DNA of 53,499 nt from a virus: the IMG/VR virus record IMGVR_UViG_3300001041_000004, positions 1-53,499 of that record; one strand, given 5' to 3'. This document shows, in pieces, positions 9,375 through 37,435 of this stretch. The notes under the pieces are model-generated. The model ran no database searches. It was given only the letters and a program-made list of their open reading frames with translations, and was not told where the DNA came from. The translations under genes and the position numbers were made by a program. How positions within the stretch are numbered: the first letter of the stretch is position 1; every line of letters begins with the position of its first letter.

Positions 9375-12300
9375 TTGGCTTGGAAACCATTGACGTATAA
9401 AGCTTATATAGGTAGCAATAGTTATTCAAATCTGTACAATAACCCATTGTCTTATGGTGAACAAACGTTATCACCTGAGTTACTTGCTATTCTTCGTAGG
9501 AATGATAATCCCGATGATGATCGGTATTTGGATAAAGGCAAACGGACTACTTGGAATCGAGCTATGTCTGTGTTGATGGGAGGTGCTTACACATCAGCAG
9601 GATTTGTTAAGGGGGCTATTGATCCGAATAAGGGAGCACTTGAAGGAGCATGGGAGGGTGTTAAGGCAGGTAACCCCTTTGGTGGTGGATACAGTCGTGG
9701 TGAGACGACGTATAGTGATGTTCTTGAAGAGTTGGGTTGGAAACCAACTACCCTTGCAGGGAAGGTAGTAAGAGGAACTCTTGGTTTTGTAGCGGATGTA
9801 GCACTTGATCCCACCACATATGCAACTGGTGGATTGAGTGCTATTGTTAGAGGTACAGGTAAAGCAAGTGCTGCACTTCATGGTACTGAGTCAATTGTTA
9901 AACTTGGTGAAAGTGTTGGGGTTAAGACAACTGGTAAGGTTGAAGATATTGCAACGATTGGTTCTGCCTTAAAGGATAAGTTGATTCAGGAGAGTGTTGA
10001 TCAAGGATACCACATTACACAAGCCACAGCAGAGGCTACAAGGCGTTCAAATAAGATCATGGATGATTTGTATACTTCAAGTCGAGGTATGACCTTAGAG
10101 AAGGCTGTAGACGTTGTGAGGGGTACTGGGTTAGCTAAGACACCTGAGGAAGTGATTAAGGATGCTCATGCCTTAATGAAGAATTACAATAAAACATTAG
10201 GGTTACGCACCAATGTTGGTCACACGTTAAGTTTAGCAAATGCACCTCTTGGTAAGAAAGTCTTTGGTAAGTTAGCAGATCACGAATTAACCATTACAAG
10301 TGTTGAGACGTTGAACAAGATTGGTGATGCAACCCTTGCACCGGCTTATGCTAAGTTACGTAATTACATTTATGGGTCTAAGTTTGGTGAGTTGTTCTCC
10401 CCCGGTAGTAAACTTTATAAGGCAAGTAGAGTTAATCCTGAAGCGGTGTATCACGTGTTCAAACAAGAAGATATGGCACGTGGTCTTGGGATGGATCGGA
10501 TTAAGTCGATTGCTTTTGTTAACGAGAAAATGAAAGAGCTAGGTGATTTGGGGTTAACTCCTGCTGAAGCTAAGGAAGTGGTTGAGTTAATGCAGAACAA
10601 GACTGTGTATAGTAAGGTTGCACAGTCCTTTGATTTTCTCAAGAGTCAAGAAGCAGGGTTCATCAAAGAGACATTACATGCTAGTCAAGTTCAAAAGAAG
10701 CAAGAGATTAACGAGTTACTTCAACAAAAGAAAGATCTTGAACATTCCAGGTACATCAAAGAAGATGATGTTATAGGGTATCAACTCAACACTCATAAGG
10801 ACATTCTTTCAGATATGAAACGAGAGTATGTTCAAAAGTTACTTGATTTTGATGTGTCTCGTTTAACCGATGAAAAAGATATTGAAGCAGTTTTAAAACT
10901 GTATGAAGATCATCTGGCAAGTACTGATGAGGTGGTACGTTACACTCAAGAGGCATTGACAAGTCTTGAAAAGAGTCACAAGGATAATCTCAAAGCTCTT
11001 GAAGTGGAGTTTAAATCAAAGATTAATCCTCTTAAATCTGAGGTTAACGCTCATCAGAAAAAAATTATTGAATTACAAGATGCTGTTAAGCAGGATGTCT
11101 TACGTAAAGAAGAGGCTGAACGATTAGCGACTGAACGTATTGAGACTGAGCGGTTAACGATTCTTGATGAGTATAAAAAGTATTCTCAAATGATTGAAGA
11201 GAATAAGTTAAATCGTAACATTAAGGATGAAGCAAGGCAAGCGAAATCCAACTCTATTACTATGGGTAAGGAAGAGTTTGAACAGGTTACTGAACTTGAA
11301 GGTATTCTTCGTCCTGATGGTATGGCTTTAGCTAAGTTTAAGGCTATTATTAATGTTGCACGTAGAGATGGTTCTGTTGTTAAGAAACAGAGAAAAGCAA
11401 TCAATGATTTTGAAGCAAGCTTTCCTGATTGGAAAAAAGTAGAACATCTTGATAGTACAGAATTTTTCCCTCCTACAGTACTTAAACCCAAAACAGTTGA
11501 AGAGGTTATTGAAAAACCTGTAAGTCATGTTGGTTTTGTAGAAAAACTATCCACCTATGTTTACGGCAAATCAGATGTAATCTCTGTGGCTACTTGGAAG
11601 GCTAATTTAGATGATGTGGCAAAATTCATTGAACAAGGTATGAGTAAGGAGTTTATTCAGAATTTTATTGATGGAAGTAAAAACTTCTACAATGGTAAAG
11701 CCGGAGTTATTTATCCGTGGGTGAATGCTAAGTTAGGAATCGACAGCTGGAAAGAAGCCTATACTGATGTGGTGAAGGCTATTGAAAAAAGAGCTAAAGA
11801 TAATCCAAAACAAGTAATGCCTAATCGTGATACATTGCAAATGGCTGAACTTCAAAAGAAAGCACTTGAACGACAAGTGTTACTTGCTAAATTTGATGAT
11901 ATGACTCTTTCTCAAGTGGTTAAGTTTGTTGGACGTGAGAATGAACTTGCTAATGCTAAACTCATGGATGAGTTAGGAGATATGGCCTACTCTCAAAGTA
12001 AGAAAGCTGATGAGTTGGATGACTTTGTTAATGGGTACGACAAAAGACGTGAAGCCCTTCGTAATGATCGGTTGAATGATCTAAGTACGATTAATGAAGG
12101 TGAACGTAAGTTTGCACCTCATGATTATAGTAAGGAGATTGAGCGGTTAAGAAAGAGTATTAATCCTCCTCCTGAAGAACGAATAGCAATGGATGAACGT
12201 ATTGCTAAGTACAAGAAAGAGTTGGAAGAATTACGTGCTCAATTTGTTAAAGCGGATGCTGATGAGAAATCTAGTATCCTTCTTAAAGTTAAAGGTGGTA

Positions 12301-15300
12301 ACAATCAAAAAGGTCTTTTACAGAAAATTGCTGAATTAGAGAAGGAACGGATGCCTAAAGTTAACAAAGATATTGTTAAGATCAGACAACAGATTGCCGA
12401 GTTACAAAAGAAGATGGAAGTTCGTACTCCGGGTATTAGTAAAGATATGCGTACCAATTACACTCAAGCTGAACGTCAACGTGACTATGTTCAAGGGATT
12501 GAACGTGTTGAAGAAAAAGTTGATTACAAGAATCATTTCTTTAACAAGGCATTAGATTTTATGGCAACGGCTAAAGATGCTGAAGGTAAGCGTCTTATTC
12601 CTGATGTGAAGGCTATCTCTTCAGCTCACGTTGATTATGCTAATTTGATTGCTAATCAGATGGAATTGATTTTAAAGACGAAGCTTAAAGTTCCTTACCC
12701 TGAATTAACATCGGCTGAACAGAAGTGGTTGTTTCATATTGCCTTGAAGGATGTTGAATTACTCAAGAGTGGTAAACCAACGTTAAGCGGTTATGAAAAG
12801 GTGCTTGCCCATAAGGAAGAGATGGAACGAATCAAATGGATTAAGCGTGTTGTTAAGGAAGGATCTGAAGTACACGTTCTTAAAAGTGGTAAGCTTTATA
12901 TTGGTAAAGTACAAGACTTCCATCCTAACGCCACATATACCATCTTAACGCCTTCAGGAGTTAAAGTGGATGGAATCATACCGGGACAGATTAAGCGTGT
13001 CAACAAGACCACTTACAGCTTCTCTGATGACACTCTGATGGATGAGGTAGAGCGTGTTATTGGTGAGAGTATGATAAGTAAGCGATTTATTGATGAAATT
13101 GCTGAACATGAAGTAATGATGGATGAAGCTATGGCTAAGTTGGATGAACTGAGTATTGCTAAGAAGAGTGCTAAAAAGGAAGAGGTGCTAAAGTATAAAC
13201 AATCAGTTGAAGACGTTAAGCAGAGTAATGTAATTGATGATACTGCTTATCATATGGAAGTGGCTGAGAAGGTTGATGCGTTTGAAGCACGTGCCGCAAC
13301 ACGTGTTGCAGATCGAGAGGCTCTTGTTGAACGGTTACAAAAGCAGACAAATAATGTCAAAGCAAATATTGAAGAGTTAGAAATTAACCGATTAAGTCTT
13401 CAAGAAGAATTTAGAAGTGGTAATCTCTTTTATGACATGGATCAAATCACTGAAGATACCTTTATGATTGAGATGCATCAGAATAAATTAACAAGTCTTG
13501 AAGAACAACTTGATCACATTGGACGTGTTGATGATTCTATTGATGTGAAGTTACTTCCTGATAATCATAGAGTATTTAATGTAGATCATTTACCCAACGG
13601 TAAAGAGATTGATGAGTACTTTGATATTGCTAGGCAACATGGTTTTGATGGTGAGATTGAAAGGTTGTTTTTAGATGGGGCAAGTCGTGAAGAGGTTATA
13701 AAACGTATTAGTAATAAGGTTCCATTTAAAGATGCTGATAAATTTTATAAAACCAATCAAATGATTGATGCTGTCAAAAGAAAATATGGTCTTCAAGAAA
13801 AGGGTTCTGAAGGGTTTGATGTTTGGAAGAAGTATTATAATGATCCACTAATACGTCGTGAACAAGGTTTGTATTATGCTGAAGACATGATTAAGCGTGC
13901 TAAACGCAAACCACTCATAGAAGAACGTGATAAGTTAATTACTGAGATTGCTCGACTTCGTAAAGCCATTGAACCAGATGATGCTGTTTCTGCTATTGAT
14001 AGGAAGATTGAAGAGATTACTGCAAAGATGGCTAAGACTGAGGAATTACTTGCCAATAGTGATGCTTTTGAAACGTATATGAGGACTACGTTAGGTGAAG
14101 ATGAGTATTGGCGTGTCATTAAAGAGAATGATCCACAGATGGGTATGTTGATGTTAGACACAATGACTCATGTGGATGATAAGGTAAAGAATGCGGTTAA
14201 GTTACTTCGTGATGAGATGGATCGGATTGGTGTTGAAGAGATTAGTGTTGGTAAATTAAAACAAGAACAATTTGATGCATTCCTTGGTGAGTACCTTCCT
14301 CACATCGTAACAGCTGAAGGAAGTAAACTCTTTGAAATACTCTACAAACGTGATAAGAAAATGATTCCCTCCTTTGGTAAAGAGTTAGGGTATGGACGTA
14401 AATCGTTTAATCCTCATGGTCTTAGTAGAACAGCCGTTAATGTTTTTGATGAGTCGGGTAATCTTATTCATCACCCAACGATTGAACAAATCAATGAATA
14501 CTTTAAAAAGACTTATGCCAAAATCCTTAAAGGTAACAATGTCTTTTCAGACAACATCTTTGAAATCTATCAGACTCGGGCTATGAAGAATGTTGAGCTT
14601 ATGTATGATGTGAAGTACACCGATGAGATGTTAAACATTTTTGGTCATGAGTATAAGGGTGTTCAAGAGGCTGGGTACAAGACAGTCATGAACTATGGCA
14701 AAGTGAAAGAAGCGACACAAAATTATGCTAGGCTTAACATTGAGATGGAGATTAGTCGTGATGTGTCAGAGTGGATTATCAAAAATAACATTATGGATAA
14801 GGCTAAGATAAGTATTTCATCAACACCTCATGTGGATCGTGTAGCGTATAAGAGACATCTTAATCTTATTGTAGGTCGTCAAATATCAGAGTATACAGAG
14901 CGTACTTTTACTAAACCTGTACGTGATCAGATGTTTGAAGGTTATGCTAAATCCTTCTCAGGTCAAAGATTATCTGATTTGTCGATGCCTATGCTTGAGT
15001 TTGAAGATGAAGGTGTTTCTCTCATCAGTAAAGGATTTAGTGATGCACTTGATGATTACTTTATCCACATCAAAGAAAAACTAGGTAAGTTTGAAGTTGG
15101 GATGATGTATGAGTCTGGTATGAAAGTAACAAAAGAGGATGCTGAATTGTTAATGCAGGAGGTTAAGAGTCTCGATAAGGATGCATTTAGAAAACGTATT
15201 AATGAGTTGCTAGATGATGATTGGCTTGATGTTGTTGACAAAGAGAGAGTCACTTCCATCTTAGGTAAAGCGGATAAACTTGATGCTGTTTCCCCTCTAC

Positions 15301-16721
15301 AAATCAGACAAGTCAGTGATGCTATTACCCAAAAAGCAAATCAAGCACGTAAACTTCAAATTGCTAAGGATCAATCTCGCTTCTTACAACTCTTTGATAA
15401 GTACACTCACCTTATAAAATTGAACCAAACAACCATCCTCCCTTATTTTCACACACGTAACAAACTCTCCAACACCTTCCTCAACTGGTTAGGTACAGGA
15501 ACCGATGCTATGAACCCTGAGTTCCAAAAGCAAGCATGGCACGCTATGAGGAAAAAAGGTGATGCAGACGGTGTGTTGAAGATTACAAGTCCTGATGGTG
15601 TGGTACGTGAAATGTCATGGGGTGAGGTTTATAAGAAGGCCGAAGAGTATGGTGCAATTAACCGTGGCTTCTATGCAACTGAACTGGGTATTGATGGGAC
15701 TAAGAAGGTAAGTAATTGGAACCCTCTGGATGCAAAAGGATTTAAACCGTATCAAGTAGGTGGTAAGGTTGGTAGTTTTGTTGAAGGTCAAGATCGACTT
15801 ATTCACTTTGCCTCACAAGTAGGTCAAGGTAAGAGTTTTGAGGAAGCGGCTGAGAGTGCTAATAAGTTCCTCTTTGACTACTCAGATATTACACAGTTTG
15901 AAGCATCGGTTATGAAGCGTATAATACCTTATTACACGTGGTTAAGGAAGAATGGTGCCTTACAGTTAGAACAAATGCTTGAACAGCCTGAGAAGTACCA
16001 AATGGTGGCCAAGGTACAAAGTGGTGTTTCAAGTATGACGGCTGATGAGGATCGGGTAAACCCCTTCTTTGTCAATGACTTTGCACTGGATTGGATTCAA
16101 CTACCGTTTAGTATTACCAATCCTGAAGGTAAAGAAGAACCTGTTTTATGGAATCCTGCCATGCCGTTTATGGATGTAAGTCGCATACCCAATCCAATGC
16201 ACCCGATTGACTCATTGAAGAATCTGTTTACTCAAAGCAATCCACTTTTCAAGGTACCTCTTGAACAAATAGCCAATCGTAACGTCTTCTTTGATCAACC
16301 AATTGTTGATACAGATAAATGGAAGAGGACACAAAGTGGTCATGTAGCCGGGGAGACTAAGGGGAATCAAATCACGGATCGACTAGATCATGTAGGAAGT
16401 CAGCTTGGAGCGTATGGTGTTTTGTCAGGACTTAACAAGCGTGGTGCTGATTTAGGACTTCACGTACTCAATAGTACAACAGGCCTTAAGATGTTGAGTT
16501 ATGATTATGATAGGATTAAGTCAATGAAGATTGGTGAAATGATTAAAGAAGGTAAATGGGATAATGATACAATCTTTGATAAGATGTCTGATAAAGCGTT
16601 TCATCAGATGAGAAATGCTATTGAACGTAAATTAATGGAACTTAATCCTATACCGGGTGATTGGCAAAACGATCTAGAACAAGGTAAACCACTCGATGAT
16701 TCTTTCTTTGATGTGCCGTAA
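9375..16721 (+). CDS. Giant internal virion (DNA ejection) protein
   Basis: 2448 residues from a TTG start; this single gene takes about 14% of the genome. The N-terminal 150 residues are Gly/Ala-rich and moderately hydrophobic (around V-R-G-T-L-G-F-V-A-D-V-A). Long charged, coiled-coil-rich regions follow. The last 400 residues contain aromatic segments such as Y-Y-T-W-L-R-K-N-G. Giant proteins at this place in podoviruses (T7 gp16-like role) enter the cell with the DNA and bridge the envelope. No lytic transglycosylase motif (E-S-x-x followed by G-x-x-Q) could be found. It ends at the convergent terminator. Confidence 0.65.
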   Translation: MAWKPLTYKAYIGSNSYSNLYNNPLSYGEQTLSPELLAILRRNDNPDDDRYLDKGKRTTWNRAMSVLMGGAYTSAGFVKGAIDPNKGALEGAWEGVKAGNPFGGGYSRGETTYSDVLEELGWKPTTLAGKVVRGTLGFVADVALDPTTYATGGLSAIVRGTGKASAALHGTESIVKLGESVGVKTTGKVEDIATIGSALKDKLIQESVDQGYHITQATAEATRRSNKIMDDLYTSSRGMTLEKAVDVVRGTGLAKTPEEVIKDAHALMKNYNKTLGLRTNVGHTLSLANAPLGKKVFGKLADHELTITSVETLNKIGDATLAPAYAKLRNYIYGSKFGELFSPGSKLYKASRVNPEAVYHVFKQEDMARGLGMDRIKSIAFVNEKMKELGDLGLTPAEAKEVVELMQNKTVYSKVAQSFDFLKSQEAGFIKETLHASQVQKKQEINELLQQKKDLEHSRYIKEDDVIGYQLNTHKDILSDMKREYVQKLLDFDVSRLTDEKDIEAVLKLYEDHLASTDEVVRYTQEALTSLEKSHKDNLKALEVEFKSKINPLKSEVNAHQKKIIELQDAVKQDVLRKEEAERLATERIETERLTILDEYKKYSQMIEENKLNRNIKDEARQAKSNSITMGKEEFEQVTELEGILRPDGMALAKFKAIINVARRDGSVVKKQRKAINDFEASFPDWKKVEHLDSTEFFPPTVLKPKTVEEVIEKPVSHVGFVEKLSTYVYGKSDVISVATWKANLDDVAKFIEQGMSKEFIQNFIDGSKNFYNGKAGVIYPWVNAKLGIDSWKEAYTDVVKAIEKRAKDNPKQVMPNRDTLQMAELQKKALERQVLLAKFDDMTLSQVVKFVGRENELANAKLMDELGDMAYSQSKKADELDDFVNGYDKRREALRNDRLNDLSTINEGERKFAPHDYSKEIERLRKSINPPPEERIAMDERIAKYKKELEELRAQFVKADADEKSSILLKVKGGNNQKGLLQKIAELEKERMPKVNKDIVKIRQQIAELQKKMEVRTPGISKDMRTNYTQAERQRDYVQGIERVEEKVDYKNHFFNKALDFMATAKDAEGKRLIPDVKAISSAHVDYANLIANQMELILKTKLKVPYPELTSAEQKWLFHIALKDVELLKSGKPTLSGYEKVLAHKEEMERIKWIKRVVKEGSEVHVLKSGKLYIGKVQDFHPNATYTILTPSGVKVDGIIPGQIKRVNKTTYSFSDDTLMDEVERVIGESMISKRFIDEIAEHEVMMDEAMAKLDELSIAKKSAKKEEVLKYKQSVEDVKQSNVIDDTAYHMEVAEKVDAFEARAATRVADREALVERLQKQTNNVKANIEELEINRLSLQEEFRSGNLFYDMDQITEDTFMIEMHQNKLTSLEEQLDHIGRVDDSIDVKLLPDNHRVFNVDHLPNGKEIDEYFDIARQHGFDGEIERLFLDGASREEVIKRISNKVPFKDADKFYKTNQMIDAVKRKYGLQEKGSEGFDVWKKYYNDPLIRREQGLYYAEDMIKRAKRKPLIEERDKLITEIARLRKAIEPDDAVSAIDRKIEEITAKMAKTEELLANSDAFETYMRTTLGEDEYWRVIKENDPQMGMLMLDTMTHVDDKVKNAVKLLRDEMDRIGVEEISVGKLKQEQFDAFLGEYLPHIVTAEGSKLFEILYKRDKKMIPSFGKELGYGRKSFNPHGLSRTAVNVFDESGNLIHHPTIEQINEYFKKTYAKILKGNNVFSDNIFEIYQTRAMKNVELMYDVKYTDEMLNIFGHEYKGVQEAGYKTVMNYGKVKEATQNYARLNIEMEISRDVSEWIIKNNIMDKAKISISSTPHVDRVAYKRHLNLIVGRQISEYTERTFTKPVRDQMFEGYAKSFSGQRLSDLSMPMLEFEDEGVSLISKGFSDALDDYFIHIKEKLGKFEVGMMYESGMKVTKEDAELLMQEVKSLDKDAFRKRINELLDDDWLDVVDKERVTSILGKADKLDAVSPLQIRQVSDAITQKANQARKLQIAKDQSRFLQLFDKYTHLIKLNQTTILPYFHTRNKLSNTFLNWLGTGTDAMNPEFQKQAWHAMRKKGDADGVLKITSPDGVVREMSWGEVYKKAEEYGAINRGFYATELGIDGTKKVSNWNPLDAKGFKPYQVGGKVGSFVEGQDRLIHFASQVGQGKSFEEAAESANKFLFDYSDITQFEASVMKRIIPYYTWLRKNGALQLEQMLEQPEKYQMVAKVQSGVSSMTADEDRVNPFFVNDFALDWIQLPFSITNPEGKEEPVLWNPAMPFMDVSRIPNPMHPIDSLKNLFTQSNPLFKVPLEQIANRNVFFDQPIVDTDKWKRTQSGHVAGETKGNQITDRLDHVGSQLGAYGVLSGLNKRGADLGLHVLNSTTGLKMLSYDYDRIKSMKIGEMIKEGKWDNDTIFDKMSDKAFHQMRNAIERKLMELNPIPGDWQNDLEQGKPLDDSFFDVP

Positions 16722-31703: not shown

Positions 31704-31731
31704 AGTATACCATACCGTTAAGAGTTTGCAA
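31704..31731 (-). promoter_or_regulatory. Promoter on the minus strand within the end of the SH3-module gene
   Basis: TTGCAA (31731-31726) and TATACT (31709-31704) are separated by 16 bases. It would start transcription about 7 bases inside the GTG-started HTH frame, serving the HTH gene from a later start, the tRNA-like element and the genes beyond. Confidence 0.45.
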
Positions 31732-32827
31732 TAGAATCCATGATACGTTTTCTGTAAGCATCATCATAAATTTCTCGATTTACAATTCGTAATTTACGAT
31801 TAATGATTTTGAAGTCAAGTATCCCTTCATTAATTCCTTCAATAATTGATTCCTCATCACCATTGTTGAACATATATCCTGTTACTGTAACACTTGGTGA
31901 ATCAACAAGTAGTATTTGTCTCTCTTTAAGACGTAACGAGTTACCGTTATCAAACCTTACATAAACAATAGCATCACCTTTGCTTTTAAGTGTTTTCCAT
32001 CGAGTTAAGTTTAAATTACTCGTTCCCAATTGATAAACATAACCGGCAGTTCCCTTTGCCGTTTCGTTAAGGTCTTTAAAAATACTTGATTCTGGGTCAA
32101 GGCAAACACGCATTCCAATAAGTATTGGCATTGCGTATCGATCATCTTGTGTAAATGGTATTGGTGATTTGATAATATCCTCTCCTTTCTCGATGATATT
32201 TAACATTCCCTTTCGGTAGATGTTATTGTGTCCATTACTCCACCTTACCCTAACCCATCCTTCTGTTTCAATTTCTGTGACGGTTCCATTATCACCCTTG
32301 TGTTGGTATTTGAATTGATTATAATCTTTATGATTTCGGTTTGGTGATACTTTATCACCTACATTAAAATCATCAAATGATTCCATAGGTAATTCTTCCT
32401 TTCTAAATTTCTCAATAGCATCTTTAAGATTTTCATGGGTGAAGGCACCTGTTTGATGGTTGTTAAATAATGGTACTTCAGCACATGGATTTGGTGCAAA
32501 AATCCAATCGTTATTTGGATTTTTTATATACAAACCCATGTCTTCTTCTAGTTTTTCGAATTGTTCACGTGTTTGTACATTTGGTCCAACACCGGATGTC
32601 ATGGGTATATGATTACGTCCTGCATGTATTACTTCCAACGCATCACATTTGTAATTACGTGAATCATCACCATCATCCCAACACACTTTAACCCACTCAT
32701 CAGGCCCTAAATTTATTGGATATTGTTCAATTACCGTACCCTGTTGATTTGTTTGTGATGGTTCATTATAAAGACCACGCATTGGATGGTCTTGTTTAAA
32801 CCTTACACGTGTACCGATAGTTAGCAT
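31718..32827 (-). CDS. Protein with repeated SH3-like modules resembling MIB/HERC2
   Basis: 369 residues with three related SH3-like barrels, about residues 4-65, 155-215 and 240-310. Each opens with G-[TDM]-[RK]-V and has W-V-[KR]-V-[CR]-W-x-[DN]-G-type strands, for example E-G-W-V-R-V-R-W-S-N-G-H. This resembles the MIB/HERC2 domain found in eukaryotic ubiquitin ligases. It starts 2 bases after the E1-like gene ends, so it belongs to the same operon. A role as substrate adaptor of the conjugation system is a hypothesis. Confidence 0.55.
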   Translation of the reverse strand: MLTIGTRVRFKQDHPMRGLYNEPSQTNQQGTVIEQYPINLGPDEWVKVCWDDGDDSRNYKCDALEVIHAGRNHIPMTSGVGPNVQTREQFEKLEEDMGLYIKNPNNDWIFAPNPCAEVPLFNNHQTGAFTHENLKDAIEKFRKEELPMESFDDFNVGDKVSPNRNHKDYNQFKYQHKGDNGTVTEIETEGWVRVRWSNGHNNIYRKGMLNIIEKGEDIIKSPIPFTQDDRYAMPILIGMRVCLDPESSIFKDLNETAKGTAGYVYQLGTSNLNLTRWKTLKSKGDAIVYVRFDNGNSLRLKERQILLVDSPSVTVTGYMFNNGDEESIIEGINEGILDFKIINRKLRIVNREIYDDAYRKRIMDSIANS

Positions 32828-32828
32828 T

Positions 32829-33500
32829 TTACCACCTCTGTGTAATTAAATTGTTGAACTTGAAATCAATGAGGATTTCGTTATCCAATTCCACTTTGTT
32901 GTGGAAATTGATGAGTTGGCGTACACACCAAGAGACAACACCAAAAGATGATGAGATGACACTGAGTGATGTTCCACAGGCACTCACCTCAGTACCTTCA
33001 TCCGAGTAATAGGTTTTCTCATATTCTCTGATGTGAGTTAAGTCCATCGGGTCAACGTTATACACTCGTCCCACATCAAGTCCAAGTCTTGGTTCAATAA
33101 GGTGTTTGACAGCTGATTTCATTTTAATGCTGCCTTCCCAAATACGTTTGCGTTCAGCCATACTGTCCACCATGAGAAAGACAATACCTGATAATTTCTC
33201 ATCAACATAAGCTTCATCTTTAATTCTAATGCGTGTTCCTGTTGCTCTGAGTACTTCTTCTGCAATTGCATGTGCCTTTGTTTCGTTGATATTTAATAAT
33301 GCAAATGCTTGATTTGGGATGTTGTGTTCCTCCACGGTATCAAAGTCCCACACAGTAATATCCGTAATGCCAAGTTTGGCTAAGGCCAATGCTAACCATG
33401 AGCCAGTACTACCAGCACCAATGATCGTTACTGGATGCTTAAAATCATGGGGTTCAAATAAATCTTGATGGCGTGAGATGTTTAGGTTGTGTTGTGCCAT
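32829..33500 (-). CDS. ThiF/E1-like adenylating enzyme of the ubiquitin-like cassette
   Basis: 223 residues. G-A-G-S-T-G (28-33) starts the Rossmann fold, W-D-F-D (51-54) binds ATP/Mg, N-Q-A-F (63-66) and K75 sit at the adenylation site, and V-D-S (111-113) follows. C175 in S-A-C-G-T-S is the likely thioester Cys. It would adenylate the C-terminal Gly of the 74-residue ubiquitin-like protein and pass it to the E2. It is minimal, with no extra domains, as in bacterial Bil/PRTRC-type E1s. Confidence 0.88.
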   Translation of the reverse strand: MAQHNLNISRHQDLFEPHDFKHPVTIIGAGSTGSWLALALAKLGITDITVWDFDTVEEHNIPNQAFALLNINETKAHAIAEEVLRATGTRIRIKDEAYVDEKLSGIVFLMVDSMAERKRIWEGSIKMKSAVKHLIEPRLGLDVGRVYNVDPMDLTHIREYEKTYYSDEGTEVSACGTSLSVISSSFGVVSWCVRQLINFHNKVELDNEILIDFKFNNLITQRW

Positions 33501-33512
33501 AATGTATTCCTC

Positions 33513-34574
33513 CTATTTCATTTCTTTTCCTGAGTAAATTGCAAACAGATAACGTTTGCCAAAATCCCATACTAATCCAAGATCACGTTGGTTGAAGTAG
33601 TTGTAATAACCAAATCCAACCAATGTTCTTTCTACCTCAATTAGTGTAGTACATTCACCTATTTCAAGCAAGATGTCTTGATCAAGGATTTCTACAATGG
33701 ATTGATCATCTGTGAAGATGTTGCCAAAACTACTGTCACCTTTTCTTCTTTGATTGATTTTTGTTTCGGCATCCTTTCTTAGTTTCCATGCTTTTTCATC
33801 CAGTTCATCCCACGATTTATTAGGTTTAATAGTCTGTGTAACCGTAGTCGAGGTCGTCCCAGATTGCTTGTTGTGCTGATGGTTTCCAACGTTGGTTCCT
33901 TTGGTTAAGGTTTTGGGGATGGTTGTAAGTGGTAATTGTTGTTTTTTTTTTACCTTTAACAACAGCTCTGTTTTGATGGCTGTTTCATAGTGAGCTAACC
34001 GATTCTTTTGATAGGTTTCCAATTGAAGTTCAAGATCAAAGATAGCTTGTGTAATCTTTTCCTCATCAGGCGAGATAACTTCATCCCATGGTAAGTCAGA
34101 CCAAATGATTCCATGTTCATAATCATAGAGATCAACACGTAATGAACCACTTTTGTTGGCAATGATACGGACAAACCAATCATGTCCAGTGGTTGCAAAA
34201 AATTCCATTTGGTTATCGTCTTGACCACTTGGGCCGGTGGGCATGTTAACGTGGCTATGTCCCCATACCTTTAGGTTATTCCAAATCTCCATACCATTTG
34301 GATTGGCTAGAATTGCTTCACCAAAAGTACTGAGTCCTTCGGGTGTTATCTCTGTGGTTGTGGAGTGAACTTCTTGATCAAACAAGTACATATCAACGAT
34401 CTTAATAACGTTACCTTGTTTATAGGCAGTACCTAACCAACCGACTTCATCGGTGGAGTTGGCAACATAGAGTTGCATTTTATCAACCGCATCAGCATTG
34501 ATCATGATTTCAGGCATACATCGTTCCAAAACCTTCACAGTCGCTTTCGTTTTAGATTCTTTAAAATAAGCCAT
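33513..34574 (-). CDS. JAB/JAMM metallopeptidase (deubiquitinase-like)
   Basis: 353 residues. The MPN core spans about 20-145. E43 (in D-E-V-G-W-L-G) and G-H-S-H-V-N-M-P-T-G-P-S-G-Q-D-D (105-120) give the complete JAMM site: H106, H108, S116, D119. After about residue 165 a charged linker and a C-terminal helical part follow, longer than in most JAB proteins. Likely roles are maturing the ubiquitin-like protein at its Gly and removing it from targets. It stands between the E2 and E1 genes. Confidence 0.9.
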   Translation of the reverse strand: MAYFKESKTKATVKVLERCMPEIMINADAVDKMQLYVANSTDEVGWLGTAYKQGNVIKIVDMYLFDQEVHSTTTEITPEGLSTFGEAILANPNGMEIWNNLKVWGHSHVNMPTGPSGQDDNQMEFFATTGHDWFVRIIANKSGSLRVDLYDYEHGIIWSDLPWDEVISPDEEKITQAIFDLELQLETYQKNRLAHYETAIKTELLLKVKKKQQLPLTTIPKTLTKGTNVGNHQHNKQSGTTSTTVTQTIKPNKSWDELDEKAWKLRKDAETKINQRRKGDSSFGNIFTDDQSIVEILDQDILLEIGECTTLIEVERTLVGFGYYNYFNQRDLGLVWDFGKRYLFAIYSGKEMK

Positions 34575-34585
34575 TACTTTCCCTC

Positions 34586-35911
34586 CTAATCTTTGTAAAC
34601 ATCTTTGATGTATTCTTCAATATCATCATCCCAATGATATGCATCATCCCTACAATTTTGGCAAACACTGTGTTCACCTTGTAAGTCATCGTTTTCATCA
34701 ATATAATTGAAGACAGTATACAAATTTTCAACAGATTCACTACAATCGTCACACGTGTATAATTGTATTTGATCCTTTGGAATTGGGATGTTGTTTTCAT
34801 CCACTTCATCCCAACGAATAACGTTTTCTCCGGCAGAGTCGTCCGTATTAGCTGATTCTAAGAAGTCAATACCAATGAGTGCCAAGGCATAGATTTGCAT
34901 TTGACTCGATAATTCGGCAATGGTTGATGAGACATTGCCAAGGCAAGCATGACCATCGCTTCCATTAACATGTGGGTGGGGATCGTTATGTGTCCAAAGT
35001 CCACGACGTGTGTTGTTGCCAAAGAAACGAATGTCTGATTGATCTGGGTCAAGTTCAAATCGATACTCACCACCGTAATAACGTTTACCTTTGGTAGATG
35101 TTATTATTAGTGGATAGGTATAGACAATGAATTTACCGCTCTTGATCTTGAGGTCTTTGACTTTTGGATGATTGATAATTAAGTCCAAATCTTGAATAAG
35201 TCCAAGAGAAACATTCTTCAGATTTTCAGTTTCTACTTGAACAAATCGTCGCTTGACACCGATTGAGTCAGAATTTGTCTTAATGGAACGTGCATAATCA
35301 CGAATTTGATTTTCAAGAGTTTGAATTGCTTCCTTAGCTTGTCTCAATTCTCGTTCCTTTTGTTCCTCTAATTTTTTAGTAAACGAACGAGTAAGAGCAT
35401 CTTTATCAGATGTGAACTTCCATGAATCTTGGAGTGATTTTACATACCAAACTTGTTCATTCCACTTCTGCATAATGTGGGTGAACGCATCAATGGATTG
35501 TTGGTTGTACTCTTTGAAGATGTTAAAAAGGATGTTGAGTTCATGAGTTTTTTCACTCCATTCAGCAATTGGTAACCCACCTTCAGAAGTTATGATGAGG
35601 GTATCTTTATTGATGGGTTCTATGAACCGAGTGAATCCAAAGTATTCATCATCTTCTACATTATTAACAACCATCGGTGCTTCACCAGTAAATGTGGCAT
35701 TAGCAAAGATACAGACTCGACGTCCTATTGATCCTGCACCATTGTTATGGACTTCTTCCCTCAGATTATAAAGATCAACGTCTTGAATGTTGAGTTCTGC
35801 AACTTGATTGCGTATGATTTGTGGAAGTTCATTTCTGAATTGATTGTGTTCACCTCGGTTGGCACCTAAAAACGTTTTGTAATCATGGATGCTGATTGTG
35901 TTTATTGGCAT
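34586..35911 (-). CDS. E2-like conjugating protein fused to a coiled coil and zinc ribbon
   Basis: 441 residues. The N-terminal 160 are a mixed domain of unknown fold. Residues about 165-215 form a Lys/Glu-rich coiled coil. Residues about 255-350 fit an E2 core: beta strands, then H-P-H-V (312-315) and G-H-A-C-L-G-N with C323 as thioester Cys, and a closing helix. C387, C390, C417 and C420 make a C-terminal zinc ribbon. E2s of bacterial conjugation cassettes share the HPH...C-L-G arrangement. The N-terminal and zinc extensions may choose substrates. Confidence 0.8.
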   Translation of the reverse strand: MPINTISIHDYKTFLGANRGEHNQFRNELPQIIRNQVAELNIQDVDLYNLREEVHNNGAGSIGRRVCIFANATFTGEAPMVVNNVEDDEYFGFTRFIEPINKDTLIITSEGGLPIAEWSEKTHELNILFNIFKEYNQQSIDAFTHIMQKWNEQVWYVKSLQDSWKFTSDKDALTRSFTKKLEEQKERELRQAKEAIQTLENQIRDYARSIKTNSDSIGVKRRFVQVETENLKNVSLGLIQDLDLIINHPKVKDLKIKSGKFIVYTYPLIITSTKGKRYYGGEYRFELDPDQSDIRFFGNNTRRGLWTHNDPHPHVNGSDGHACLGNVSSTIAELSSQMQIYALALIGIDFLESANTDDSAGENVIRWDEVDENNIPIPKDQIQLYTCDDCSESVENLYTVFNYIDENDDLQGEHSVCQNCRDDAYHWDDDIEEYIKDVYKD

Positions 35912-35952
35912 TGTATTGCCTCCTTAGTTTAGTTTGGTGTAGGTTTATGCTC

Positions 35953-36048
35953 TACGTGATGCACACTTACTTCATCAAAGTTACCACGTCTAGTAACTCA
36001 GCTTTTCTTTGTGCATCACGTAAAGCACACCTCATAAGTGTGCTTTAC
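35953..36048 (-). ncRNA. Structured RNA between the Ubl and E2 genes
   Basis: A 13-bp stem (TACGTGATGCACA, 35953-35965, with TGTGCATCACGTA, 36010-36022) encloses a 6-bp stem (AGTTAC with GTAACT). Directly beside it is a perfect 11-bp hairpin (36020-36048, loop CTCATAA) that shares three bases with the first stem. No T tract follows. It could be a processing site, attenuator or stabiliser that sets different levels of Ubl and E2. Confidence 0.6.
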
Positions 36049-36081
36049 ATTTAGTATATTATTAAGAATGATTATTAAATA

Positions 36082-36306
36082 CTAATTGCTATTCCCTTTT
36101 ACCTGTTTGGCAAGAATGATCAGATTGGTATTCTGTGTAACATACGTGCCGTTCAAATCAGTGACAGCATTACCATCCACTTTGACGTCAAACCCTTGGG
36201 CAGAAAGTCCTGCTAATTCGATAACTTGAGCAATGCTTGCACCAACCTCAACGACATACTCACTGATTTTACCCGGCATTTGACCTACGCGAATTGTTTT
36301 TTCCAT
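36082..36306 (-). CDS. Ubiquitin-like beta-grasp protein
   Basis: 74 residues from the ATG 8 bases after AAGGA; the longer upstream frame lacks a site. Strand T-I-R-V-G, turn P-G-K, helix S-I-A-Q-V-I-E-L-A-G and the later strand L-I-I-L-A-K-Q-V-K-G form a ThiS/MoaD/ubiquitin-type grasp. The end reads K-G-N-S-N, so the conserved Gly71 would need removal of three residues before activation, a task for the JAB peptidase encoded two genes downstream. Confidence 0.75.
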   Translation of the reverse strand: MEKTIRVGQMPGKISEYVVEVGASIAQVIELAGLSAQGFDVKVDGNAVTDLNGTYVTQNTNLIILAKQVKGNSN

Positions 36307-36403: not shown

Positions 36404-37435
36404 TTACTTCATGAGTAACATTAGCATCAATGGATCAATTGCACCGGCAGTTGCCGCTCCACCTAATCCACCACCCAGTAACATAAGAGGTAATAAATCT
36501 TTCATTGAGGAGTTGCCGCTTTCCTTATCACCCAACAGAGACATTAAGAGTAGTGGATTGTTTGCAATGCCACCAGAAGCCCCTGCTTGGCCTCCTAAGC
36601 CACCAGACAGCATGAGTAAGGGTAACATGTCGCCGAAGTCACTTGAACCGTCCTTAGACAGCATCATAAGCATCATAGGATTGATGGCAGGAGGTGTTGC
36701 AACAATAACTGGGTTGCCATCTTTGTCGAACAGTTCAGCCATAGCAGGAGCGGTTTGTGCAGAAAATAGAGATTGAACTTTGTAATAAAAGTTGATCCCG
36801 AAGAGGTTGGTTTCTTTGCAGATGGTGGATTTTGTTCCTTTGTTCAAATTGATACCAGAGATGGAACCATTCGTGTTGATATCGAGGACTTGGTAGTAGT
36901 CACCTTTGAATTTGATGACATCAGTAGGGACAACAGCCGTTACAGGCAAGATGAAAATCATATCCGATGCCTCTTTGATGACGAGAGACATTTGATTCAC
37001 GATTTGTCCAAGAGCGGCATCATAGGAGGCATACTCATCAGCTGAGCGGCGAATCGCAATTTGACCACCAAAGGTTAAAGCAACCTCACCGTTTTTCACT
37101 TTGCCAAACTCTCCAAATAATTTGCTAACATTCATGCTAATTCCTTCTTTCTTTTCATTTTTAGGTTGTGTTGATGATGAAACCTTCCCAACAAAATCAT
37201 CTCTCACGTATTCACAATTGGGAGTTTGTGGTACGCGTGGTACACTGGCACAGTTTATGGTTTGGTATTTTGGCTTACTTACTGGGACAACGGGCTCTAT
37301 TTCGAGCAGATCAGAACTTGGCACATCATAGTAACCAACCTTCCCATACACTGTAAATGTGGTAGGTGTTACTTGATCTGCAATGACGACGTTTTCATTG
37401 GTTGAAATGCAATAGACTTTTTCTCCAACTTTCAT
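36404..37435 (-). CDS. Protein with Leu/Met/Gly-rich tail, first gene of the ubiquitin-like operon
   Basis: 343 residues. The first 50 look like an SH3-like barrel (M-K-V-G-E-K-V-Y-C). Residues about 101-240 form a core starting M-N-V-S-K-L-F-G-E-F-G. The last 90 contain four D-x-L-P-L-[ML]-L- or N-P-L-L-L-M-type repeats with Gly-rich loops. A second ATG at residue 101 has its own AAGGA 7 bases upstream, so a shorter product is likely. I recall similar cores with L-L-M-rich tails in other phages and plasmids, of unknown role. It may be a substrate or scaffold for the conjugation system. Confidence 0.7.
   Translation of the reverse strand: MKVGEKVYCISTNENVVIADQVTPTTFTVYGKVGYYDVPSSDLLEIEPVVPVSKPKYQTINCASVPRVPQTPNCEYVRDDFVGKVSSSTQPKNEKKEGISMNVSKLFGEFGKVKNGEVALTFGGQIAIRRSADEYASYDAALGQIVNQMSLVIKEASDMIFILPVTAVVPTDVIKFKGDYYQVLDINTNGSISGINLNKGTKSTICKETNLFGINFYYKVQSLFSAQTAPAMAELFDKDGNPVIVATPPAINPMMLMMLSKDGSSDFGDMLPLLMLSGGLGGQAGASGGIANNPLLLMSLLGDKESGNSSMKDLLPLMLLGGGLGGAATAGAIDPLMLMLLMK

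Follow-up and report, generated by a model that had tools for sequence, protein, structure and literature searches.

The four-gene locus and its predicted products

The virus record IMGVR_UViG_3300001041_000004 of the IMG/VR database, whose 53,499 bases are referred to as the window herein, contains a block of minus-strand genes at positions 32829–36306 that would encode a ubiquitin-like protein (Ubl), an E2-like conjugating protein, a JAB/JAMM metallopeptidase and a minimal E1 enzyme. A preliminary description of this DNA had proposed that four such genes lie consecutively on one strand and form a complete cassette within a phage replication block. Both proposals were borne out, as the four open reading frames (ORFs) and their motifs were confirmed in the order Ubl, E2-like, JAB, E1, and the folds, co-occurrence and neighboring genes described below agree with a complete set in such a block. 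The genes are tightly packed, with 11–12 bp between E2 and JAB and between JAB and E1, and 1 bp between E1 and the next gene downstream; the Ubl and E2 genes are separated by 170 bp.

The E1 gene (32829–33500, minus strand) encodes a protein of 223 aa that carries the motif G-A-G-S-T-G along with D52/D54, N60, K75, D112 and Cys175. It matched Pfam ThiF with an E-value of 1.9e-12, and the best match in a profile search of the PDB was UBA5 (1.4e-10); PADLOC E1-E2 proteins and PRTRC_ThiF were matched less strongly. The neighboring JAB gene (33513–34574, minus strand; 353 aa) is predicted to act in Ubl maturation or deconjugation. Its metal-binding and catalytic site, E43 plus H106-S-H108-x7-S116-x2-D119, is a complete JAMM site, and its matches were weak, consisting of a sub-threshold hit to Pfam Prok-JAB and profile matches to BRCC36/RPN11.

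Since neither the window Ubl nor the E2-like protein matched any family on its own, both were tested by family and by fold, and the structure predictions that the preliminary description had suggested recovered a beta-grasp and an E2 fold, respectively. The E2-like protein (34586–35911, minus strand; 441 aa) consists of an N-terminal region, a long helix, an E2 core at about residues 231–366 and a C-terminal CxxC..CxxC sequence that is probably a zinc module. It contains the motif DPHPHVNGSDGHACLGN, with HPH at residues 312–314 and Cys323, and we take its motif HPHVNGSDGHACLG to resemble the eukaryotic HPN...C active site. In the AlphaFold2 (AF2) model the core was predicted with a predicted local distance difference test (pLDDT) score of about 97, and nearly all Foldseek matches of the model in the PDB were E2 enzymes (E-values from 0.02 upward, probability up to 0.97). 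In a separate observation, two E2-like genes per cassette were seen in five of the viral loci described below (L015, L097, L145, L096 and L083).

The Ubl gene (36082–36306, minus strand) encodes 74 aa ending in KQV-K-G-N-SN. Its AF2 model is a beta-grasp fold (pLDDT 87) whose best Foldseek matches in the PDB were ubiquitin, ISG15 and SUMO. The window Ubl alone gave no family match in Pfam and NCBIfam scans, and individual relatives matched Pfam models of ThiS, SAMP2, Ub-Mut7C, RnfH and TGS. A profile built from 43 relatives matched archaeal SAMP2 along its full length with an E-value of 2.2e-7. In this alignment the K-G of the Ubl family covers the first residue of the archaeal Gly-Gly pair, which places N, A or G at the activated position.

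A Gly near the C-terminus of the Ubls is conserved, but in all 70 distinct terminal Ubls with [KREG]-G at this point at least one more residue follows it, mostly N (45), G (10) or A (10). The residues beyond the [KREG]-G-(N/G/A) end are variable in sequence and 0–9 in number; a further 53 Ubl termini do not have the [KREG]G pattern. Tandem precursors with two or three Ubls occur in relatives and repeat a KGN, RGA, KGG or KGS motif at every junction, as would be expected for maturation by JAB. In the triple Ubl of locus L094, for example, the junctions read KQIKGN-VQT, KQIKGN-VST and KQIKGNN, with similar repeats in L095, L096, L118, L143, L005, L083 and L145. Judged from these sequences, either JAB would cut G|N, a site that in many members is a single residue short of the terminus, or Asn would be the last residue of the mature modifier.

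Recurrence among viruses and relation to known systems

Searches with single proteins, in which E2 and JAB were compared with named phages and E2 with viral contigs, gave no match and first suggested a rare cassette. Profile searches overturned this view. Using E1 and JAB as queries we found 132 and 206 viral loci, respectively, and took 80 of each for analysis; E-values for gene calls refer to the approximately 14,000 ORFs of the analyzed loci. The full four-gene set was present in 68/80 E1-selected and 73/80 JAB-selected loci. Many of the incomplete loci end at a contig edge, and five E1-selected loci lacked a recognizable Ubl, some of them with spare sequence. The search for the same set in other phages, another check put forward in the preliminary description, thus yielded 108 viral loci with all four genes once duplicates had been removed, in 52 E1 clusters at 60% identity.

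The genes of these 108 loci occur in at least five core arrangements, including Ubl-E2-JAB-E1 (64 loci), E2-JAB-E1-Ubl (18), Ubl-E1-JAB-E2 (10) and Ubl-E2-E1-JAB (4). Since the set is kept while its order shuffles, this is good evidence of joint function rather than of inherited synteny. Cys175 and Asp112 of E1 and E43, H106, H108, S116 and D119 of JAB were invariant in 108/108 loci, and Cys323 and His314 of the E2-like protein were found in 107/108 and 106/108, respectively. Both the conservation of these residues and the co-occurrence of the genes are far above chance.

The window encodes a dUTPase, ribonucleotide reductase, exonuclease, DNA polymerase, primase, DnaB helicase, single-stranded DNA (ssDNA)-binding protein, terminase, portal and head proteins. 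A scan of 36 window ORFs recognized no integrase, and no tRNA gene turned up in the window. Replication and recombination genes (helicase, ssDNA-binding protein, primase, DnaB, polymerase) were also the recurrent neighbors of the cassette across clusters. As a search of 85,000 bacterial and archaeal species genomes recovered only 31 cassette loci, nearly all of them on metagenome-assembled contigs, the cassette looks virus-borne rather than cellular.

Relatives of the E1 were also found in crAss-like and Flavobacterium phages. In crAss001, DAC15, cr128_1, Dulem virus 41 and FpV4, the genes for a Ubl-like protein, an E2-like protein (HSH...C-x-G), a JAMM protein (HSHx7SxxD) and an E1 follow one another in this order, in a block with genes such as those for primase, uracil-DNA glycosylase and exonuclease. 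The cassette of crAss001, a phage of Bacteroides intestinalis, comprises gp79–gp76 (locus L206, crAss001 75406–88131); DAC15 (L207) infects B. thetaiotaomicron, FpV4 is a Flavobacterium phage, and cr128_1 is represented by L205. Comparison of the window-family and crAss-like profiles gave probabilities of 99.9% for E1 and 95% for JAB, and P = 1e-4 for E2 with the His and Cys aligned. In addition, a viral fold library searched with the E2 model returned a crAss-like protein and a 435-aa cr128_1 protein of the same length as the predicted cr128_1 E2. These cultured phages probably hold a divergent version of the cassette, for which the sequence comparisons are clear for E1 and JAB, make E2 likely and are weaker for the Ubl. 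In GenBank the genes are labeled as thiamine biosynthesis (ThiF, for the E1), metalloprotease domain or hypothetical, and the crAss001 genome paper, the crAss-like survey and the crassvirus structure paper make no mention of them as Ubl-conjugation genes. A further arrangement was seen in Xanthomonas phage PhiXhv-12 (L202, 1751–5627), which encodes an E1, a small protein ending in SGG and an 892-aa protein with the E2 motif HPHMAVPSSQESHGSLCLGS and a Cys-rich tail; no JAB was seen adjoining these genes. Erwinia phage Ep032 has an E1 that matches that of PhiXhv-12.

The preliminary description had likened the cassette to PRTRC and Bil systems, and in each case the likeness extends to gene content but not to membership. 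PRTRC cassettes of plasmids and integrative elements share the Ubl, E2-like, JAB and minimal E1 classes and run C-F-B-A-ThiF, equivalent to Ubl-x-E2-JAB-E1; they appear to correspond to operon type 6d of Iyer 2006. By E1 and by organization, as judged from sequence, PRTRC is the nearest named relative. The E1 profiles align at 99% probability with the Cys aligned, as is the Cys-x-Gly of E2, whereas the window E2 has an upstream HPH that PRTRC_B does not. Membership in PRTRC was nevertheless rejected. The window E1 scored 35.2 bits against the PRTRC_ThiF cut-off of 144.75, the Ubl, E2 and JAB had no match to NCBIfam PRTRC A, B or C and aligned weakly with hhalign, and an E1 tree placed five PRTRC and 55 phage sequences on opposite sides with a support of 100/100. 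No PRTRC ParB, E or F genes were found as neighbors, ParB having been looked for among the window ORFs scanned against PHROGs.

Bil shares the Ubl, E2, JAB deubiquitinase and E1 in the same order as the window, as the preliminary description had stated. This order is not diagnostic of Bil, since plasmid PRTRC cassettes have the order Ubl-(F)-E2-JAB-E1 as well. BilA has two Ubl domains, BilD has an inactive and an active adenylation domain and a Cys domain, and BilB has a CEHH motif (PMC11354881). In contrast, the window Ubl is a single domain of 74 aa rather than two in tandem, the 223-aa E1 is one ThiF domain with no second adenylation or Cys domain, and no E, H and H are found at +6, +8 and +13 after Cys323 of the E2-like protein, which has the upstream HPH instead of CEHH.

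Other systems share only parts of the set. The phage Ubl resembles SAMP2 of the archaeal SAMP1/2-UbaA-HvJAMM1 system, which also has a single E1 and a JAMM deconjugase but is not known to include an E2; the phage cassette has an accompanying E2-like gene, and its Ubls usually have Asn in place of the terminal Gly. Type II CBASS (Cap2/Cap3) and 6A-MBL share E1 domain similarity and a JAB partner. In these systems E2 and E1 are fused and no dedicated Ubl gene of this kind is known; in the window, E1 and E2 are separate genes and no neighbor matched a CD-NTase or MBL. Lambda-type tail assembly provides a phage-borne Ubl plus JAB in TAPI/TAPK (PMC1779556), with no E1 or E2 and in the tail module, whereas the cassette lies in the replication module. 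As PRTRC and Bil are excluded and SAMP, CBASS and TAPI share only parts, the sequences point to a phage-specific variant of bacterial ubiquitin-like conjugation. Within the open-access papers searched, a scope that excludes subscription papers and preprints and thus leaves priority unproven, we found no description of phage-borne E1/E2/JAB/Ubl sets or of crAss phages in connection with ubiquitin.

Proposed pathway and alternative explanations

On the basis of the sequences and models, we consider it likely that the cassette encodes a working, phage-specific ubiquitin-like conjugation cascade. The best profile match of the Ubl, SAMP2, is a true protein modifier, and this match, that of the E1 to UBA5, the repeated junction motifs of the tandem precursors and the replication genes next to the cassette also favor this reading. 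From the observed genes, folds, catalytic residues and co-inheritance we infer the following reaction steps, together with their action in the early or replication phase. The Ubl would first be a precursor, which in relatives is a tandem chain of two or three Ubls, and JAB would trim the residues beyond the conserved K-G-(N/A/G) end. E1 would adenylate the Ubl C-terminus with ATP and then load the Ubl on its Cys175, from where it would move to Cys323 of the E2-like protein. The latter would attach it to a phage or host protein, probably with a lysine as the acceptor, and JAB may also undo this attachment. The modification would act in the early or replication phase, with replication-stage phage or host proteins as the best guess for its targets. 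More tentatively, the cassette may represent a deep, phage-specific branch of Ubl conjugation that extends to crAss-like gut phages, has an activated end that is usually Asn (K-G-N) and is used during viral genome replication.

Several observations weigh against this interpretation. The E2-like protein matched no Pfam family, either in the window or in any of 41 members of the protein family, and a PDB sequence-profile search returned only coiled-coil noise; the E2 assignment therefore draws on the motif, the predicted structure and its Foldseek matches. The E2 model had a predicted template modeling (pTM) score of 0.49. The Foldseek E-values were modest, which we attribute to the query, whose 441 aa comprise several domains and a long helix. 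The crAss Ubl aligned with the window Ubl family at P = 0.022 in hhalign and had no informative Pfam match. Most Ubls have Asn at the position of the activated terminal Gly of SAMP2, and a large second group ends in K-x-[DN]-N-A with no Gly, for which canonical Ubl chemistry gives no account. Since the loci in which the genes were called also served to iterate the Ubl and E2 profiles, marginal Ubl calls (such as L116 and the second Ubls of L129 and L149) are to be discounted. Finally, position in the replication block does not identify the target.

Among alternative roles, we rank counter-defense second to modification of replication-stage proteins. The cassette would then modify host immune proteins, or strip modification from them, with CD-NTases and Cap or Bil substrates as examples. 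Hosts do use E1/E2/JAB conjugation in CBASS (PMC10097602, PMC11153139), and the early-gene location would suit such a role; however, three catalytic activities are kept together, beyond the needs of a decoy or a lone deconjugase, no defense gene was prominent among the neighbors, and we judge this role to be rather unlikely. Somewhat less probable still is defense against competitors, in which the Ubl would mark virion components of superinfecting phages, in the way that Bil marks tail tips. The same four enzyme classes are found in Bil (PMC11354881) and mobile elements often carry exclusion systems, but the cassette lies in the replication block of phages of very different types, is not Bil by the single-domain Ubl and E1 and the E2 motif, and showed no clear cellular immunity operon among the 31 cellular-genome loci, nearly all of which are metagenome-assembled.

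We also considered that the Ubl might not tag proteins at all and might instead, like ThiS or MoaD, donate a thiocarboxylate for the modification of cofactors, nucleosides or tRNA, given that the E1 and Ubl have matches to ThiF and ThiS as well and that JAB-matured sulfur carriers, QbsE/QbsD, exist. This is improbable, as every full set has a dedicated E2-fold protein with a nearly invariant His and Cys, and the neighbors include no recurrent rhodanese, sulfurtransferase or cofactor gene. The deviation of Ubl termini from Gly-Gly and the absence of close E2 relatives for the E2-like protein could suggest a degenerate or scaffolding role in which catalytic residues are kept for folding alone. 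Such a role is very hard to credit, because the Cys, Asp and Lys of E1, the Cys of E2 and all metal ligands of JAB show almost no variation in 52 E1 clusters.

At present, E1-E2-JAB-Ubl systems are seen mostly as weapons of bacteria against phages. Here a complete set of this kind is a recurrent part of phage genomes in 52 E1 clusters, beside replication genes, and if the proposed conjugation cascade is correct, viruses would tag proteins in the course of infection. Given its probable presence in divergent form in cultured crAss001, DAC15 and FpV4, its role would be directly testable in laboratory phage-host pairs. The cassette would bear on the infection biology of a large group of gut viruses and extend the early history of ubiquitin signaling by a broad branch, and the Gly-Asn terminus, if confirmed, would add something new to Ubl chemistry.

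Intergenic element and flanking genes

The gap between the Ubl and E2 genes contains a structured element (35946–36048, minus strand) that consists of a short hairpin followed by a long stem, with a fold z of -5.4. Two to three copies were found in the same gap of three loci, L001 (265–361, 439–519, 598–680), L002 (1581–1661, 1734–1815) and L010 (2147–2227, 2306–2388), and nowhere else in the analyzed loci. Its 16-bp stem has six pairs with compensatory changes on both sides, compared with 0/500 shuffles, and a search of Rfam with the element gave no match. The element could set the ratio of Ubl to E2.

Immediately 3' of E1 lies a gene for a possible accessory protein of 369 aa with a MIB_HERC2-like SH3 domain (31718–32827, minus strand; Pfam MIB_HERC2, 4.7e-8, 33.3 bits versus a cut-off of 33.5). 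The MIB_HERC2 domain is known from the Mind bomb and HERC2 ubiquitin ligases. A gene for such a protein directly follows E1 in the window, L001, L002, L010, L166 and L172 and lies closely downstream in L004; a PDB search with the protein gave no match, and a role as an adaptor is speculation. The upstream gene (36404–37435, minus strand; 343 aa) has no assigned function and is probably outside the core cassette. Its product had no match in family-library scans, and homologs lie upstream in L002 and in eight loci of three E1 clusters. Elsewhere in the window, an ORF of 2448 aa (9375–16721, plus strand) with no PHROG match lies shortly 3' of the endolysin gene.

Two further associations were seen around the cassette in other loci. 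Ubls ending in K-x-[DN]-N-A are fused at that end to a protein of ~125 aa in roughly fifteen loci (among them L043:5107–5715, L036, L052, L054, L061, L063, L064, L067, L072, L074, L075, L081 and L084), and in other loci the same protein is encoded by a separate gene just upstream of the Ubl; on this arrangement, it is a candidate natural partner or substrate of the Ubl. In 34 loci, which belong to 12 E1 clusters, a reverse transcriptase gene with a YADD motif lies downstream of the cassette at a distance of one to three genes, for example at L042:9686–10828, L203:5888–7225 and L006:10960–12054.

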